Positions 8,244-22,680 of a DNA stretch of 47,047 bases are shown piece after piece. Position 1 is the first letter of the stretch. Every line of letters starts with the position of its first letter. A program made the position numbers and the translations under genes. The notes beneath the pieces are model-generated. The model saw only the letters and a list, made by a program, of their open reading frames with translations. It did not search any database and was not told where the DNA came from. The stretch comes from an uncultured Erysipelotrichaceae bacterium (GTDB lineage Bacteria; Bacillota_I; Bacilli_A; RF39; UBA660), in NCBI GenBank assembly GCA_902801685.1, contig CADCIZ010000004.1, positions 1 through 47,047 of the forward strand, read 5' to 3'.

Positions 8244-9437
8244 TCATCTTTTTCTTTTAAAAGGTCTTTTAATTTTTCTTTTACTTTTCTTTAATTTAAT
8301 CTTTATTCTAATAATCAATATGATAATTACTAAAGGTATTAATAATAGATAATAATTATAGTATTTTATATCTTTATCTAAATATACTTTATAGGTATCT
8401 AATATATCTCCTTGGTACATTATTTTTACTTTACCTAAGTAATCACCTTTTTTTATTTTTCTATTTAATGTATCAATACCACTATATTTATATTCTATCT
8501 TGCTTAAATCAACATCATTACTTAGATACTTTTTTATTTCTTTATTTGATACAATATCATATTTTTTTATCTTACTATGCTTTACTTTAATAGTCTTAAT
8601 TACTTGTTTATCTTTTAGAATAGTTTTATAAGAATAATTAGTATCAAAATAGTTATATAAAGTTAATGTATCTTTTATATGATTAGGAAATTTATCAGCA
8701 TTTAGTGTAACAACTAAATAATTAATGTCACTATATGTGGCAGTTGATGCAAGACAGTATCCTGCTTCATTTGTAAAACCTGTTTTAGAACCCGTTAACT
8801 TACTGATATCAAGATTACTCTTACGAGCAGTATCATCTGTTGTCTTAGTAAGTTTTATGTTATTAGTTGTAGTATAAGTTGTAGTATTATATAGTTCTTT
8901 AAAAGTTTCATTCTTAATAGCTTCTTTTAATATAACAGCCATATCAGAAGCAGTAGAATAATTATCATCATCCATACCAATAGCATTTGAAAAACTAGTA
9001 TTCTTAAGATTCAGTTTACTAACTTTATCATTCATAAGTTTAACAAATTCTTCTTTTGAACCGGAAATAGCTCGCGCAAGAATATTAGCTGCATCTGCCG
9101 CACTAGGAAGCATTAATGCATAAAGTAAATCTTTATAAGATACTTTATCACCAGTTCTAAATCCGGCAACGGCATAACCTTTTAATCCTACTAAATCTTG
9201 ATATTCTACAGTTACAGTATCATCTAAATTACTAATATTTTCTAAAGATACTAAACATGTCATAATCTTCGTTAAACTAGCTACTTTAGTTTGTTCATTA
9301 CTATTTTTTTCATAAATCACTTTATCATCATTTAAATTATAAACAACTGCTTCTTTCGAACTAATATCAATTTCAAGAGCACTTATATTAGATAAAAATA
9401 ATAATAAAGATATAATAATTATAAAAATCTTTTTCAT
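8244..9437 (-). CDS. Serine-type D-Ala-D-Ala carboxypeptidase (PBP5/DacA family)
   Basis: This is a low-molecular-weight penicillin-binding protein that trims the terminal D-Ala of peptidoglycan stem peptides outside the membrane. The start is the ATG at 9437, directly after GGTGATT; the longer frame would begin at a GTG inside that site. A signal peptide covers residues 1-20. The active-site SLTK is at 54-57, the SxN-equivalent is SAA (near 111) and KTG lies in SKTGFT (near 216). A C-terminal hydrophobic helix (about 358-376) and a very basic tail anchor it in the membrane. SAA in place of SxN is atypical, but I believe variants occur in clostridial homologues. DacA is the general type; the sporulation paralogue DacF cannot be excluded. 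Confidence 0.93.
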   Translation of the reverse strand: MKKIFIIIISLLLFLSNISALEIDISSKEAVVYNLNDDKVIYEKNSNEQTKVASLTKIMTCLVSLENISNLDDTVTVEYQDLVGLKGYAVAGFRTGDKVSYKDLLYALMLPSAADAANILARAISGSKEEFVKLMNDKVSKLNLKNTSFSNAIGMDDDNYSTASDMAVILKEAIKNETFKELYNTTTYTTTNNIKLTKTTDDTARKSNLDISKLTGSKTGFTNEAGYCLASTATYSDINYLVVTLNADKFPNHIKDTLTLYNYFDTNYSYKTILKDKQVIKTIKVKHSKIKKYDIVSNKEIKKYLSNDVDLSKIEYKYSGIDTLNRKIKKGDYLGKVKIMYQGDILDTYKVYLDKDIKYYNYYLLLIPLVIIILIIRIKIKLKKSKRKIKRPFKRKR

Positions 9438-9475
9438 AATCACCTACAATCCTAATTAATTATATCATCAAAAAA

Positions 9476-9501
9476 GAAAAAAGTATATTATTTTATATAC
9501 T
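9476..9501 (-). terminator. cotE terminator
   Basis: On the minus strand AGTATAT-AAAATA-ATATACT is followed by TTTTTTC. The stem overlaps the stop codon at 9488. Confidence 0.75.
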
Positions 9502-10021
9502 CTTCATTAACACTAGTTTCAATATCATCCATTACTTTATCAGATGCTTCATCAACAACTTCATCCCATGGATCTTCATCCTCCTCAACAGCTATTTTAA
9601 CTTTAGTTTCGCCTACTATTTCAACACCTAATTCCTTTTCTATATCAAAATTAATATTATTATCTGTTATCGAAACAGAAGAACAACTAGGTTGTTTTAA
9701 AGGTTTAACTATAATATCTGTATCAGAGTTTATCTCAGCGTTATCTCTTATTCTAACATTAAATGTATCTGTATAATCTATTTTTTTAGTTGCGACCATT
9801 GTCTTAGAATCTTCATCGTATGAATACCAAATATTTACATCAAAAGATCCATTAACTCCTATTTTATCACCAGTTTTATAACCATTAAACTTATGATTTA
9901 TTACCCAACAGCCTAGGATTGTTGTAGGTTTATTTGTTGCCTCAAGACTATAGCTATCTTTAAAATACTTTTTTCCTTTACCAATAACAGCTTTTGTAAC
10001 TATTTCCTTATACAATGACAC
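9488..10021 (-). CDS. cotE: Outer spore coat morphogenetic protein CotE
   Basis: CotE is the organiser of the outer spore coat in Bacillus. The 177 aa track the known protein closely: EIVTKAVIGKGKK near the start, ILGCWVINHKF, DVNIWYSY, then QPSC, VEIVGETKV and an acidic C-terminal tail. I place the start at the GTG at 10021, three codons inside the longest frame. This gives MSLYKEIVTK, which lines up with MSEYREIITK of B. subtilis, and GGAG sits 8 nt upstream. No vegetative promoter is visible, but a sigma-K-like sequence lies just upstream. Its presence suggests the organism or its recent ancestors form spores. It is a single-gene unit with its own terminator. Confidence 0.92.
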   Translation of the reverse strand: MSLYKEIVTKAVIGKGKKYFKDSYSLEATNKPTTILGCWVINHKFNGYKTGDKIGVNGSFDVNIWYSYDEDSKTMVATKKIDYTDTFNVRIRDNAEINSDTDIIVKPLKQPSCSSVSITDNNINFDIEKELGVEIVGETKVKIAVEEDEDPWDEVVDEASDKVMDDIETSVNEEYIK

Positions 10022-10039
10022 TCTTATCACTCCTCATTT

Positions 10040-10069
10040 TAATATATGACAATCGCACATATTTTGTAC
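10040..10069 (-). promoter_or_regulatory. Sigma-K-like promoter of cotE
   Basis: On the minus strand GTACA (10065-10069) is followed after 16 nt by CATATATTA (10040-10048). This matches the mother-cell sigma-K pattern (AC, about 16 nt, CATAnnnTA). In B. subtilis cotE is read by sigma-E and sigma-K. The match is short and by eye. Confidence 0.45.
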
Positions 10070-10096
10070 CAAAAAAAAGACTATTTTACAATAGTC
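10070..10096 (-). terminator. leuS terminator
   Basis: On the minus strand GACTATT-GTAA-AATAGTC is followed by eight T residues. It starts 2 nt after the leuS stop. Confidence 0.88.
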
Positions 10097-10097
10097 A

Positions 10098-12512
10098 CTA
10101 TTTCACTACAATATTAACCAACTTCTTAGGTACAACAATCATCTTAACAATTTCTTTACCCTCAGTAAATACTTTTACATTCTCAATTTCTAATGACAAC
10201 TTTTTCATTTCTTCTTCAGTTGTATTTGTATCTACTTCAATCTTACCTCTAACTTTACCATTAACTTGAACAACCATAGTATATGTTTTATCTTCAAGTT
10301 TATTAGTATCATATTCTACCCAAGTAGATTCTGTAAACTTATTACCAAGATTATATATTTCATTTAATTCTTCAGTAATGTGAGGCGCGATTGGATTAAG
10401 TAAATGTAGTAACACACGATAATCTTTTTTACTAACTGTATCTAATTTTTCAAGTTCATTTAGTAAAATCATTAATGCAGATACGGCTGTATTATATTTG
10501 ATACTACTTAAATCCTCAGTTACTTTCTTTATAGTTTGATTAATAAGTATTTCAGTTTGTTTAGAATATTCAGTTGAATCATTTAATCTCTCTCCTAGTC
10601 TAAATACTCTATCTAAGAATTTCTTACAACCTTTAAGGCCTTGGATACTCCAAGCAGCATCTTTCTCATAATCGCCAATAAACATTTCATAAGTACGAAG
10701 TGCATCCGCACCGAACTCTTTTACGATATCATCAGGATTAACTACATTACCTTTCGATTTACTCATCTTCTCATTATTGGAACCAAGTATCATGCCATGA
10801 CTTACACGAGTCCATATCATTTCCTTATTAGGAACTAGTCCGATGTTATATAAGAATTGTACCCAGAATCTAGCGTATAGTAAGTGACGGGCTGTGTGCT
10901 CCATACCACCATTATACCAATCTACTTTATTCCAGTATTTCATAGATTCCATTGATGCAAAGCACATATCATTATGTGGATCCATGAATCTTAAGAAATA
11001 CCAACTAGAACCAGCCCAGTTAGGCATAGTATCTGTTTCCCTTTTGGCCTCTTTACCACATTTTGGGCACTTACAATTTACCCAATCTGTAATTTTAGCA
11101 AGTGGACTTTCTCCATTATCAGTAGGTTCGTATTCTGCAACATCAGGCAACAGCAATGGTAAATCTTCTTCATTCATAGGTACCCAACCACAAGTATCAC
11201 AATAAATCATTGGAATAGGTTCACCCCAGAATCTTTGACGCGAGAATATCCAATCTCTCATCTTGTAGTTATTTACTTTTCTTGCTATTCCTTTATTAAC
11301 CAAGTATTCAGTAATTTTCTCTTTTGCATCAGGAATACTAAGTCCACTAAATTCTTCCGAGTTAATTAGTCTAGCATCAGGATTATTTAGATATTCTCCT
11401 TTTTCATAAGCATGCTCACTAATATCTCCTCCAGTAATTACTTCGATAATTTCTAGATTATGTTCTTTTGCATACTCAAAATCCCTCTGATCATGAGATG
11501 GCACTGCCATAACAGCTCCAGTACCGTAATCTCCAAGTACAAAATCTCCTAAGAATATTTTAACCTCTTTACCATTAACTGGATTAATAGCTTTAATACC
11601 TTTAACCTCAACGCCACTTTTACCTTTATTAAGTTCAGTACGGTCCATATTAGATTTCTTCTTAGTCTCTTCGATATAAGTTAATACTTCATCTTTGTTC
11701 TCAACTCTAGGCATTAACTCTTTTATAAGTTTACCATCTGGCGCAATTACAAAGAAAGTAATTCCATAAATTGTTTCAATGCAAGTTGTGAAGATTGAAA
11801 ATTTACCTCCACCTACTATATCGATATCAACTTCAACTCCAGTTGATTTACCAATCCAGTTAATTTGACCAAGTTTTACTTTATCAGCAAAATTAGTATC
11901 ATCAAGTCCTTTAAGTAAATCTTCAGCATAATCACTCATCTTAAGCATCCATTGTGATTTTTCTTTTTGAATTACTTCTGTACCACATCTTTCACATACA
12001 CCACCAGCCGCATCTTCATTAGATAAAACTGTCTTACAATTTGGACACCAGTTTACAGCAACAGTATCTTTATAAGCCATTCCATGTTTATAGAATTGTA
12101 AAAATTGCCACTGTGTCCATTTGTAATACTCGGGATCAGTTGTGGAAAATTCACGAGACCAATCAAATGAGAACCCTAATGACTTCATCTGTCCTTTAAA
12201 TGTCTTAATATTTTCTCTTACCGCATCTTTAGGATGAATATGGTTCTTTATTGCATATTGTTCAGCAGGAGCACCAAATGCATCCCATCCCATTGGATAT
12301 AGTACATTATATCCTTGCATACGTTTCATTCTTGCAATCGCATCTTGAGCAGTATAACTTCTAACATGTCCTACATGTAATCCTGCTCCTGATGGATATG
12401 GAAACTCTACTAATACATAATAAGGTTTAGCCCCACTATTATTTACTTTAAATGTATTGTTGCAATCCCAATACTTCTGCCATTTTTCTTCAATTTCCTT
12501 AAAATCATACAT
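10098..12512 (-). CDS. leuS: Leucyl-tRNA synthetase
   Basis: This 804-aa class I enzyme charges tRNA-Leu. The HIGH motif is in YPSGAGLHVGH (about residues 37-47). A zinc-type knot with two CxxC pairs (CPNC and CERC) lies near 155-180. The CP1 editing domain follows, and the KMSKS loop is NEKMSKSKGN (near 570). A second cysteine pair set (CDTCG, CKCPKC) is near 430-480. The ATG at 12512 has AAGGAAGG about 7 nt upstream, at the end of the previous gene. leuS is the second gene of a transcript that begins with a T-box leader, so uncharged tRNA-Leu should switch it on. Confidence 0.97.
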   Translation of the reverse strand: MYDFKEIEEKWQKYWDCNNTFKVNNSGAKPYYVLVEFPYPSGAGLHVGHVRSYTAQDAIARMKRMQGYNVLYPMGWDAFGAPAEQYAIKNHIHPKDAVRENIKTFKGQMKSLGFSFDWSREFSTTDPEYYKWTQWQFLQFYKHGMAYKDTVAVNWCPNCKTVLSNEDAAGGVCERCGTEVIQKEKSQWMLKMSDYAEDLLKGLDDTNFADKVKLGQINWIGKSTGVEVDIDIVGGGKFSIFTTCIETIYGITFFVIAPDGKLIKELMPRVENKDEVLTYIEETKKKSNMDRTELNKGKSGVEVKGIKAINPVNGKEVKIFLGDFVLGDYGTGAVMAVPSHDQRDFEYAKEHNLEIIEVITGGDISEHAYEKGEYLNNPDARLINSEEFSGLSIPDAKEKITEYLVNKGIARKVNNYKMRDWIFSRQRFWGEPIPMIYCDTCGWVPMNEEDLPLLLPDVAEYEPTDNGESPLAKITDWVNCKCPKCGKEAKRETDTMPNWAGSSWYFLRFMDPHNDMCFASMESMKYWNKVDWYNGGMEHTARHLLYARFWVQFLYNIGLVPNKEMIWTRVSHGMILGSNNEKMSKSKGNVVNPDDIVKEFGADALRTYEMFIGDYEKDAAWSIQGLKGCKKFLDRVFRLGERLNDSTEYSKQTEILINQTIKKVTEDLSSIKYNTAVSALMILLNELEKLDTVSKKDYRVLLHLLNPIAPHITEELNEIYNLGNKFTESTWVEYDTNKLEDKTYTMVVQVNGKVRGKIEVDTNTTEEEMKKLSLEIENVKVFTEGKEIVKMIVVPKKLVNIVVK

Positions 12513-12513
12513 A

Positions 12514-12855
12514 TTATCTACCTTCCTTCTGATATAACTTACCTATTATATGATAACAAATAAGTATTAATGCCATCACAGTACCAAAACCTACTAGTAT
12601 TTCTATAATTATATTTTTAAATAAACTAACTATTGTAACTGATATAGCCATTATAAATGAATTAGTAATAGCTACTAATATAGCAATTCCTTTATAATCA
12701 GATTCTTTAATCTTAATCTTATAAACTTTCTTTAAATAACTAATCTCTTTACCTTTAATAAACTTATCTAAGTACTTTCTTCTTCTAATTACAAATAATA
12801 AGTATATAAAAAATACTACAACAAAAGTTACTAAAAATAATATTAAACTAAACAT
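12514..12855 (-). CDS. Small membrane protein between the T-box and leuS, 113 aa
   Basis: The family is not recognised. There is an N-terminal transmembrane helix (about residues 3-22), a basic cytoplasmic stretch RRRKYLDKF, and two more hydrophobic helices (about 55-78 and 83-105). The ATG at 12855 follows AAGGAGG at good distance, and the stop is 1 nt before leuS. The gene is therefore co-transcribed with leuS under the same leucine-responsive T-box. A leucine-linked membrane role is possible but purely inferred from position. Confidence 0.8.
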   Translation of the reverse strand: MFSLILFLVTFVVVFFIYLLFVIRRRKYLDKFIKGKEISYLKKVYKIKIKESDYKGIAILVAITNSFIMAISVTIVSLFKNIIIEILVGFGTVMALILICYHIIGKLYQKEGR

Positions 12856-21443: not shown

Positions 21444-22463
21444 TTAATTTGTCTTTCTTTTAATTCCATCATTCTTGTATAACTCTACAACAGGACGAAC
21501 AACAAATTCATCATGAACACTCACTATATTATAATAAAACGAAAATTTATTTATAATATACATATCATAATTTGAATCATTATAAGGAGTCATTGTCCAA
21601 TAACTGTAATTAGAATTATGAAGCCAATCATATTGAGGTTCTAATTTCATCTGCTCATCACCAGAAGCATTTACATAATAGACTTCTTCACATAGTGATT
21701 TATAATCGTTGAACGTTATTAATCTAGCAACTTTTAGTGTATCATTTTCAATTTTATCTGTTGCCCAATTATCAACAACATACTTAATATCACTTTGATT
21801 ATAATCAGTTGAACAATTAACACTTTCATAATTCCAACAATCATCACGCGTATAATATCTAAGGGCACCATAACCATTTAGGTTATATGCATGTCCTGCT
21901 TCAGAACTTCCAGGATAATTAGCATACTTATTTACATGATTATTATCGGTTCCTACTCCTCCATATAAATTTACTTCATCTACAGTAAGTGGTGTAGCTT
22001 TTAGGAGTGTTACTACATTATTCTTAGAATCACTATCTTTAATTACATAATAATCTTCACCATTATATGTTACTTCATCGCCCTTACTATATGCTTCAAA
22101 TGCTTTTTTATCTGTTCCATAAGTATAATCAGTAACATCACGATTTTTTACTTTGCATCCAGCAAGATACACACTACTATCTGGATTAATCTGTGTAGTT
22201 TCACATGTTACAATATCTCCTGAATATTCAATTGTTAACTGTGATACTTCTGTTGGAAATTTACCATTATCTAATAGATATCCTGCAATTGCAAGTTCAA
22301 TACTTCTTCCATATGCATCAACACTTCGCTTGTCCGCTGATATTCTAACCTTTCTAATAATGTTCATTACTAGTGGTGTAACTATGAGTGCAAGTATAGA
22401 CATAATAACTAATAATGCTATTAATTCGAGTAATGTGAATCCTTTCTCTTTTCTCTTTGTCAT
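21444..22463 (-). CDS. Type IV pilin-like protein with large C-terminal lectin-like (DUF6273-like) domain
   Basis: This is a 339-aa prepilin-type protein. The class III leader is KEKG|FTLLE, with the prepilin-peptidase site after the glycine at residue 8 and Glu5 of the mature protein present. A hydrophobic assembly helix follows (about 9-35). The rest is much longer than a normal pilin. The C-terminal part with YWTMTPYND and VRPVVELYK resembles the sugar-binding-like fold of DUF6273/sulfatase-modifying-like domains (inference). Four cysteines may form disulfides. No other pilus gene is in the window, so the assembly machinery lies elsewhere. GGAGAG precedes the ATG. The promoter has a TA dinucleotide run between -35 and -10. 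Confidence 0.82.
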   Translation of the reverse strand: MTKRKEKGFTLLELIALLVIMSILALIVTPLVMNIIRKVRISADKRSVDAYGRSIELAIAGYLLDNGKFPTEVSQLTIEYSGDIVTCETTQINPDSSVYLAGCKVKNRDVTDYTYGTDKKAFEAYSKGDEVTYNGEDYYVIKDSDSKNNVVTLLKATPLTVDEVNLYGGVGTDNNHVNKYANYPGSSEAGHAYNLNGYGALRYYTRDDCWNYESVNCSTDYNQSDIKYVVDNWATDKIENDTLKVARLITFNDYKSLCEEVYYVNASGDEQMKLEPQYDWLHNSNYSYWTMTPYNDSNYDMYIINKFSFYYNIVSVHDEFVVRPVVELYKNDGIKRKTN

Positions 22464-22515
22464 ATATAATCTCTCCTATCTAATAAGGTATCTCTCTTAC
22501 TTACCTTACGACTAC

Positions 22516-22542
22516 AGTATACTATATATATATATATGACAA
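22516..22542 (-). promoter_or_regulatory. Pilin-like gene promoter with TA-repeat spacer
   Basis: The -35 TTGTCA (22537-22542) and -10 TATACT (22516-22521) are only 15 nt apart. Fourteen of the 15 spacer bases (22523-22536) are (TA)7. One added TA unit would give the optimal 17-nt spacing and two fewer bases would weaken the promoter further. The leader to the ATG at 22463 is about 46 nt. Confidence 0.6.
22523..22537. repeat. (TA)n dinucleotide microsatellite
   Basis: A pure alternating TA tract of 15 bases (7.5 units) occupies the promoter spacer of the pilin-like gene. Runs of this kind are prone to slipped-strand length change. Confidence 0.9.
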
Positions 22543-22642: not shown

Positions 22643-22680
22643 AGAAAAACACCTAAGTAATCAATGGTTTCTTAGGTGCT
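22643..22680 (-). terminator. Terminator after the Fic gene
   Basis: On the minus strand CACCTAAG (22671-22678) pairs with CTTAGGTG (22650-22657), followed by TTTTTCTT. It lies 60 nt beyond the stop at 22740. Between this and the pilin promoter (22543-22642) I see only AT-rich sequence. Confidence 0.82.

Follow-up and report, generated by a model that had tools for sequence, protein, structure and literature searches.

Comparative evidence for probable promoter-spacer phase variation in a type IV prepilin family of uncultured Bacilli

A pilin-like gene in the window (the whole stretch of 47,047 nucleotides analyzed here) is preceded by a promoter whose spacer consists almost entirely of TA repeats, raising the question of whether the repeat number acts as a switch of transcription. 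The sequence-only reading had described this promoter as TTGTCA-15 nt-TATACT, with (TA)7 occupying 14 of the 15 spacer bases, and this description held: positions 22542..22516 of the minus strand read TTGTCA TATATATATATATAG TATACT, ~52 nt upstream of the ATG of the open reading frame at 21444..22463 (minus strand). All of the elements of this region lie on the minus strand. The -35 hexamer TTGTCA (22537..22542), the TTG of which was conserved in 15 TA-class promoters from two species, directly follows a conserved AAAAAGGC. The (TA)7 simple sequence repeat (22523..22536) fills the spacer together with one G, and the same site contains (TA)4 to (TA)11 in paralogs. The -10 hexamer TATACT (22516..22521) has the form TATAMT in every TA-class copy, and is followed after 8 nt by an AAGGTAA box (22501..22507), the predicted 5' end of the transcript, which was conserved in TA-class promoters and in the T-class promoters described below. 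The order of the promoter in full is AAAAAGGC TTGTCA TATATATATATATAG TATACT GTAGTCGT AAGGTAA. A hairpin in the 5' UTR (AAGGTA...TACCTT; 22483..22509) was conserved in the TA class and is weak (z = -1.1 for the window copy and -2.1 for the copy at L019), and a ribosome-binding site, AGGAGAG, was found at 22471..22477.

Since a terminator-like hairpin with a T-run and a 13-nt loop (22644..22679, minus strand) closes the upstream Fic gene and separates it from the pilin gene, the latter needs its own promoter. This hairpin was recognized by its folding energy (-10.4 kcal/mol; z = -3.6; matched by 0/200 shuffles), and was missed by a consensus terminator scan because its loop is too long. The earlier claim that TTGTCA/TATACT is the only plausible promoter was slightly overstated: weak promoter-like matches (9/12) occur nearby, and the end of the tract overlaps another candidate -10, TATAGT, 5 nt upstream of TATACT. 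Unlike these alternatives, the TTG/-10 pair was conserved across paralogs. A simple repeat is thus located between the -35 and -10 of a surface-protein gene, as expected for a contingency locus of the promoter-spacer type.

The gene encodes a type IV prepilin of 339 amino acid residues. The prepilin leader claimed initially was confirmed: KGFTLLEL matched Pfam N_methyl (PF07963; 25.9 bits versus a cut-off of 21.2), TIGR02532 was above its cut-off, and the class III leader, G/F cleavage site, E5, and hydrophobic helix were all present. Among 33 paralogs, the leader and helix (residues 1-82) were highly conserved (~83-91%), and the C-terminal, DUF6273-like (C-type-lectin-type) domain was variable (~34% at residues 261-280 and 301-320). 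The claim of a large lectin-like domain is plausible, but has not been shown. DUF6273 matches were weak (5/13 paralogs at E ≤ 0.01) and below the curated cut-off for the window copy. AF2 gave only mediocre models of the full protein and the C-terminal part without a significant PDB match. With the AF2 model (pLDDT 68), Foldseek matches had E > 1, several of them to C-lectin folds (EgtB, Treponema TvpA, and a venom lectin). A lectin-like domain therefore remains a possibility that rests on these sub-threshold matches and on published DUF6273 proteins, which were modelled as C-type-lectin domains and in which DUF6273 ends in the variable region of a retroelement (PMC10743442, PMC11792537); ligand binding is inferred. 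A prepilin peptidase (PF01478, contig C57) and T4P/T2S-type assembly ATPases (PF00437; contigs C14, C5, and C26), including a GspE/PilB-type ATPase on C14 and a Tad-type cluster on C5, were encoded in the same genome, their link to the window pilin being inferred. The pilin gene is adjacent to genes for a UvrD-type (AddA-like) helicase and the Fic protein; elsewhere in the window, positions 891-2459 encode the HsdM protein of a Type I restriction-modification system (N6_Mtase and HsdM_N).

The initial reading was framed for a single gene and required correction, because the arrangement was family-wide. The genome of the window (G000; a MAG of 1.31 Mb in 75 contigs, 26% GC) contains ~22 close prepilin paralogs, nine of which share the promoter TTGNNN-(TA)4-9-G-TATAMT followed by the conserved 5' UTR; some copies (L021 and L024) have no promoter. 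A census covering 1.296 Mb of this genome detected 291, 28, 3, 2, 1, and 1 (TA)n tracts for n = 4, 5, 6, 7, 8, and 9, respectively, such that four tracts of n ≥ 7 were observed versus ~0.3 expected from the decay between n = 4 and 5. All seven tracts of n ≥ 6 were located inside prepilin promoter spacers. The TA tract is thus more than a chance occurrence, although these are not seven independent events, the copies being paralogous. In 14 TA promoters, an unbroken tract connected the -35 hexamer with the G that precedes the -10. These tracts total 180 bases, for which ~25 changes were expected at the rate of non-consensus bases in the 5' UTR. Only at L137 was the tract interrupted, and the pilin gene downstream of it is broken. 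Because slippage and gene conversion also preserve purity, and because the search pattern favors pure tracts, this purity supports hypermutability more than selection.

Six more TA promoters of this type were found in the sister species G004 (n = 4-11; spacers of 7-23 nt). Among the four comparable loci of the two species, the repeat number had changed at two (spacers of 13 versus 15 nt at 93% flank identity, and 15 versus 23 nt at 82%), and was unchanged at two loci with short tracts (13 nt in both at 98% identity, and 9 nt in both at 94%). Since these two pairs kept their spacers, tracts of n ≤ 6 may possibly slip only rarely. The TA counts across relatives, the check that had been suggested for this locus, therefore differed among paralogs (4-9) and at 2/4 sister-species loci, and the repeat number varied among copies and relatives in a manner that changes the spacer length (n = 4-11; 7-23 nt), as expected for a contingency locus. 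No second genome of the window species was present in the genome-contig scan, and the block of the window pilin and Fic genes was missing in G004 by a positional orthology check. In G001 (RUG12438, a rumen MAG), a poly-T pilin gene was found near addA; it was not used as a strict ortholog of the window locus because it lies behind a transposase.

The homologous prepilin promoters of G001 and G005 (SRR12081294_bin.11), and of three loci in G000, contained poly-T instead of TA (T6-T24), for example TTGAC-T16-AGTAAACT, TTGAC-T24-AGTATAAT, TTGCG-T16-GATAGAAT, and TTGA-T14-GTACAAT. The gap between the -10 and AAGGTAA was 7-8 nt (9 nt in one TA copy), and the -35/-10 spacer ranged from 6 to 25 nt. 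Of the T≥12 tracts, 8/11 in G001 and 5/11 in G005 were located upstream of prepilin genes, and another 5/11 in G005 were TTG-T13 at contig ends, with the downstream gene unassembled. The five contigs concerned (L191, L193, L195, L203, and L205) end just past TTG-T13 at a common GTACTAAATAACTACGTTATGGCCTGAG, which probably reflects another tract-promoter gene family collapsed in the assembly. That either of two repeat types can occupy a homologous site argues strongly, on comparative grounds and in the absence of read-level or expression data, for slipped-strand phase variation through the promoter spacer.

Among the prepilin paralogs with a recognizable promoter but no repeat, several had their best fit at a 17-nt spacer (L027, L145, L148, L150, L161, L162, and L176), and no clear promoter fit was obtained for others; 17 nt is thus the likely optimum. 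TA-class spacers were all odd in length, and the 17-nt state is therefore present on each ladder. Since no TA promoter with a clean -35 was found at 17 nt in the assemblies, all are predicted to be weak or off in the consensus.

The tract and its position, the gene family, the differences in repeat number between copies and species, the two repeat types at a homologous site, the prepilin nature of the product, and the ATPase and peptidase genes are direct observations. By the most likely reading, the TA tract works as a switch in which slipped-strand events set the length of the promoter spacer. That the tract slips in populations, that this alters transcription, that pili are assembled and bind ligands, and that the variation has a selective role are all inferred. 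In this model, the gain or loss of a TA unit at replication would shift the -35 relative to the -10 of a housekeeping-sigma promoter by 2 bp, giving a ladder of spacers of 7, 9, 11, 13, 15, 17, 19, ... nt, and strong transcription of the prepilin gene would occur only at ~17 nt. The window allele (15 nt) is accordingly predicted by the model to be weak, one TA short of the on state. This part of the sequence-only reading, that 15 nt is weak and one more TA ideal, fits the 17-nt spacers of the non-repeat paralogs and remains a prediction. With a separate TA or poly-T tract at each of many prepilin paralogs, the cells of a single strain would differ in the set of pilins that they display, and these pilins in turn would differ in their ligand-binding C-terminal domains. 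The central claim of a promoter made phase-variable through its spacer length was supported and passed every test that could be run, on comparative evidence only. The sequences are MAG consensus, and the lengths of long homopolymers are uncertain. Furthermore, a promoter tract alone is no proof of switching: in Mycoplasma agalactiae, the T-tract at the single vpma promoter showed no switching when it was tested (PMC2268961).

Many paralogs also end in runs of NNC codons, with a third-position C fraction of 0.4-0.72 versus 0.05 elsewhere (26% GC). A complete diversity-generating retroelement (DGR) with a type IV prepilin as its target was found on contig C1 of G000 (9402-12693; L301). It comprises, all on the minus strand, the target prepilin gene (L011; 11680-12693), the variable repeat (11709-11793), a reverse transcriptase gene (9531-10739; YMDD; RVT_1, E = 2.4e-17), and the template (9402-9486). 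Between the variable repeat and template, 12/27 template adenines and 2/58 other bases were changed (p = 8e-6), and this paralog is thereby a DGR target by its reverse transcriptase, template, and A-specific variable repeat. Since the best NCBIfam match of the reverse transcriptase was a group II intron model, far below the cut-off, the identification of the element as a DGR depends on its layout and on the pattern of differences between template and variable repeat. A similar pattern was observed in the G004 pilin L126 versus an upstream template: 13/24 adenines and 0/45 other bases changed (p = 6e-8), in an alignment with two hand-placed two-codon gaps. The window pilin did not qualify as a DGR target: compared with the C1 template, it had 29/58 non-A mismatches and a third-position C fraction of 0.00, and the possibility that it is a current target was rejected on these grounds. 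L011 (T8) and its congener counterpart L144 (T17) appear to combine a promoter of the tract type with a variable region of the retroelement type. A bolder reading, in which one prepilin family is diversified both by TA/poly-T promoter switching and by DGR hypermutation of the displayed C-type-lectin domain, is in our judgment as likely to be wrong as right.

Several related sequences were noted. Stand-alone template-RNA-like sequences occur upstream of prepilin genes in G004 (C74, L126/L300; 256-560 and 681-1634) and G005 (C14, L181; 1281-1483), and share an identical 59-nt stretch; only the C-terminal remnant of a reverse transcriptase is left at the start of the G004 contig. Contig C58 of G000 (L382) has another reverse transcriptase ORF at ~773, which is retron-like and contains the motif YSDDMTFS. 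At L020 and L127, the flanks and N-terminal part were orthologous (93%), with the C-terminal domain replaced as if cassettes had been swapped. In two species, three loci (L140, 2405; L022, 1254; and L173, 1352) share one inserted sequence (GATTAGTACCAATGATRGTATCACT...) at an identical base (GTA^) within the conserved 5' coding end of the pilin gene. It cuts the pilin short after ~20 codons and has the appearance of a site-specific insertion.

In the wider family, (TA)7GTATA was found in 4/386 genomes, in one of which (G149) TTGATA-(TA)7-G-TATAAT precedes the gene for an unrelated membrane protein. In two further genera, those of G290 and G442, the T≥15 tracts examined (T15-T21) had TTG or a closely similar triplet on one side and a -10 on the other, and preceded genes for paralogous secreted proteins. 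The G290 loci (L283-L290) encode YAAFxTNLNI proteins with DUF6273-like domains behind T-tract promoters, and the secreted proteins of these loci and of G442 (L291-L293) also include SipW/CalY-like and InlB-repeat proteins. As a control, sparse T≥15 tracts were taken from other genomes of the family; of these 29, four had TTG and two had both boxes, near the background. A degenerate hairpin pattern searched in 291 family genomes with 3 mismatches gave background matches only, and neither the promoter nor close relatives were found in viral contigs.

Three other explanations were considered. The repeats may be an evolutionary tuning knob, by which promoter strength drifts between lineages while the loci are effectively fixed within a population, without a switch. 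Many tracts are indeed short (n = 4-6), the same spacer was retained in 2/4 ortholog pairs, and promoters with spacers of 7-11 nt seem to be locked in the off state. In studied bacteria, however, long tracts such as those found here (n = 7-11; T16-T24) belong to the class that slips fast; moreover, purity and the repeated use of two repeat types favor selection for mutability. We regard this explanation as unlikely. Even less likely is the absence of any regulatory role, with pilin transcription starting elsewhere or inert AT-rich repeats having been copied along with the paralogs. It can draw on the weak promoter-like matches upstream, the second -10 (TATAGT) at the tract end, and the common descent of the tract among paralogs, but does not account for a tract flanked by a conserved -35 with its upstream A-rich block and by a conserved -10 at a fixed 7-8 nt from AAGGTAA, or for the substitution of poly-T for TA at the homologous site. 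The sparse T≥15 tracts elsewhere in the family also showed this arrangement at background only (4/29 with TTG).

Recombination or retroelement mutagenesis of the coding region may, on the other hand, be the main source of variation, with the promoter repeats being secondary relics. This is suggested by the C-terminal parts swapped between the orthologous loci L020 and L127, the complete DGR targeting a paralog on C1, and the pilin copies without a promoter (L021 and L024). It is nevertheless improbable: pure, length-variable tracts are left unexplained, and the DGR signature was absent from the window gene. A separate candidate, the tract as a regulator-binding site at a fixed distance, was rejected because the distance varies.

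The slipped-strand switch, the reading that we prefer, has several precedents. The fimbrial genes hifA/hifB of Haemophilus influenzae have a (TA)n promoter with demonstrated switching (PMC2651432), and the claim that the window promoter has the same design held for the repeat position: in both, TA repeats lie between the -35 and -10 of a pilin gene. Furthermore, hifA copies in one strain group have A12/A17 instead of TA (PMC2651432), comparable to TA/poly-T in G000. The protein family differs, however: the hif genes, present in few copies and accompanied by a divergent chaperone gene, encode fimbriae of the chaperone-usher type, whereas G000 has type IV prepilins as single genes, with ~9 TA copies plus T copies in one genome. 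Chaperone and usher genes were absent beside the window pilin, which thus does not qualify as a hif-type fimbria. In Mycoplasma mycoides, where ON and OFF clones were sequenced, a dinucleotide promoter-spacer repeat controls the expression of Vmm, and poly-TA tracts precede several lipoprotein genes (PMC3053259, PMC10502178). This system resembles ours in its TA spacer repeats in a low-GC Firmicutes-related bacterium and in several surface genes each with its own TA number, but its products are lipoproteins, not prepilins. In the Vlp system of Mycoplasma hyorhinis, a homopolymer in the promoter region of each gene sets ON/OFF (PMC10502178); this is likewise a multi-gene surface family, but with poly-A only, lipoproteins, no dinucleotide class, and no known retroelement targeting. 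The lipobox Cys was absent from the leader of the window pilin, which thus does not qualify as a lipoprotein of the Vlp/Vmm type. The initial claim that such a design is undescribed in Firmicutes of this kind was weakened by these precedents in Mycoplasma; no description in RF39-like or other uncultured bacteria was found in the literature searched.

The pili of Bifidobacterium breve, also a gut commensal, are switched by replication slippage, but in a G-tract inside the coding region of sortase pili (PMC9187656). The C-type-lectin/DUF6273 targets of DGRs (PMC10743442, PMC11792537) share with our family the DUF6273-type domain and hypervariable C-terminal segment, and the G000 paralog shows both the RT-TR-VR layout and the A-specific changes. 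Phage proteins make up the DUF6273 cases published so far, whereas the target in G000 is a chromosomal type IV prepilin, and the window copy is not a recent target. The proposed mechanism is therefore already known, and what is new is its setting: a large prepilin family of uncultured Bacilli in which TA and poly-T spacers are interchangeable, and part of which is associated with a retroelement.

Phase variation through promoter-spacer repeats has so far been known mainly from a few pathogens. Here it would be the shared means by which uncultured gut/rumen Bacilli with small genomes control a large family of pilins, and two interchangeable repeat types at one homologous site come close to a natural experiment on the purpose of the repeat. 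If this reading is correct, the pili of a clonal commensal population would form a combinatorial mixture in which the binding domains differ. A further layer of variation, one that changes the sequence of the same surface fiber, would come from the linked retroelement. Such two-layer variation would bear on host colonization and on encounters with phages and host antibodies.
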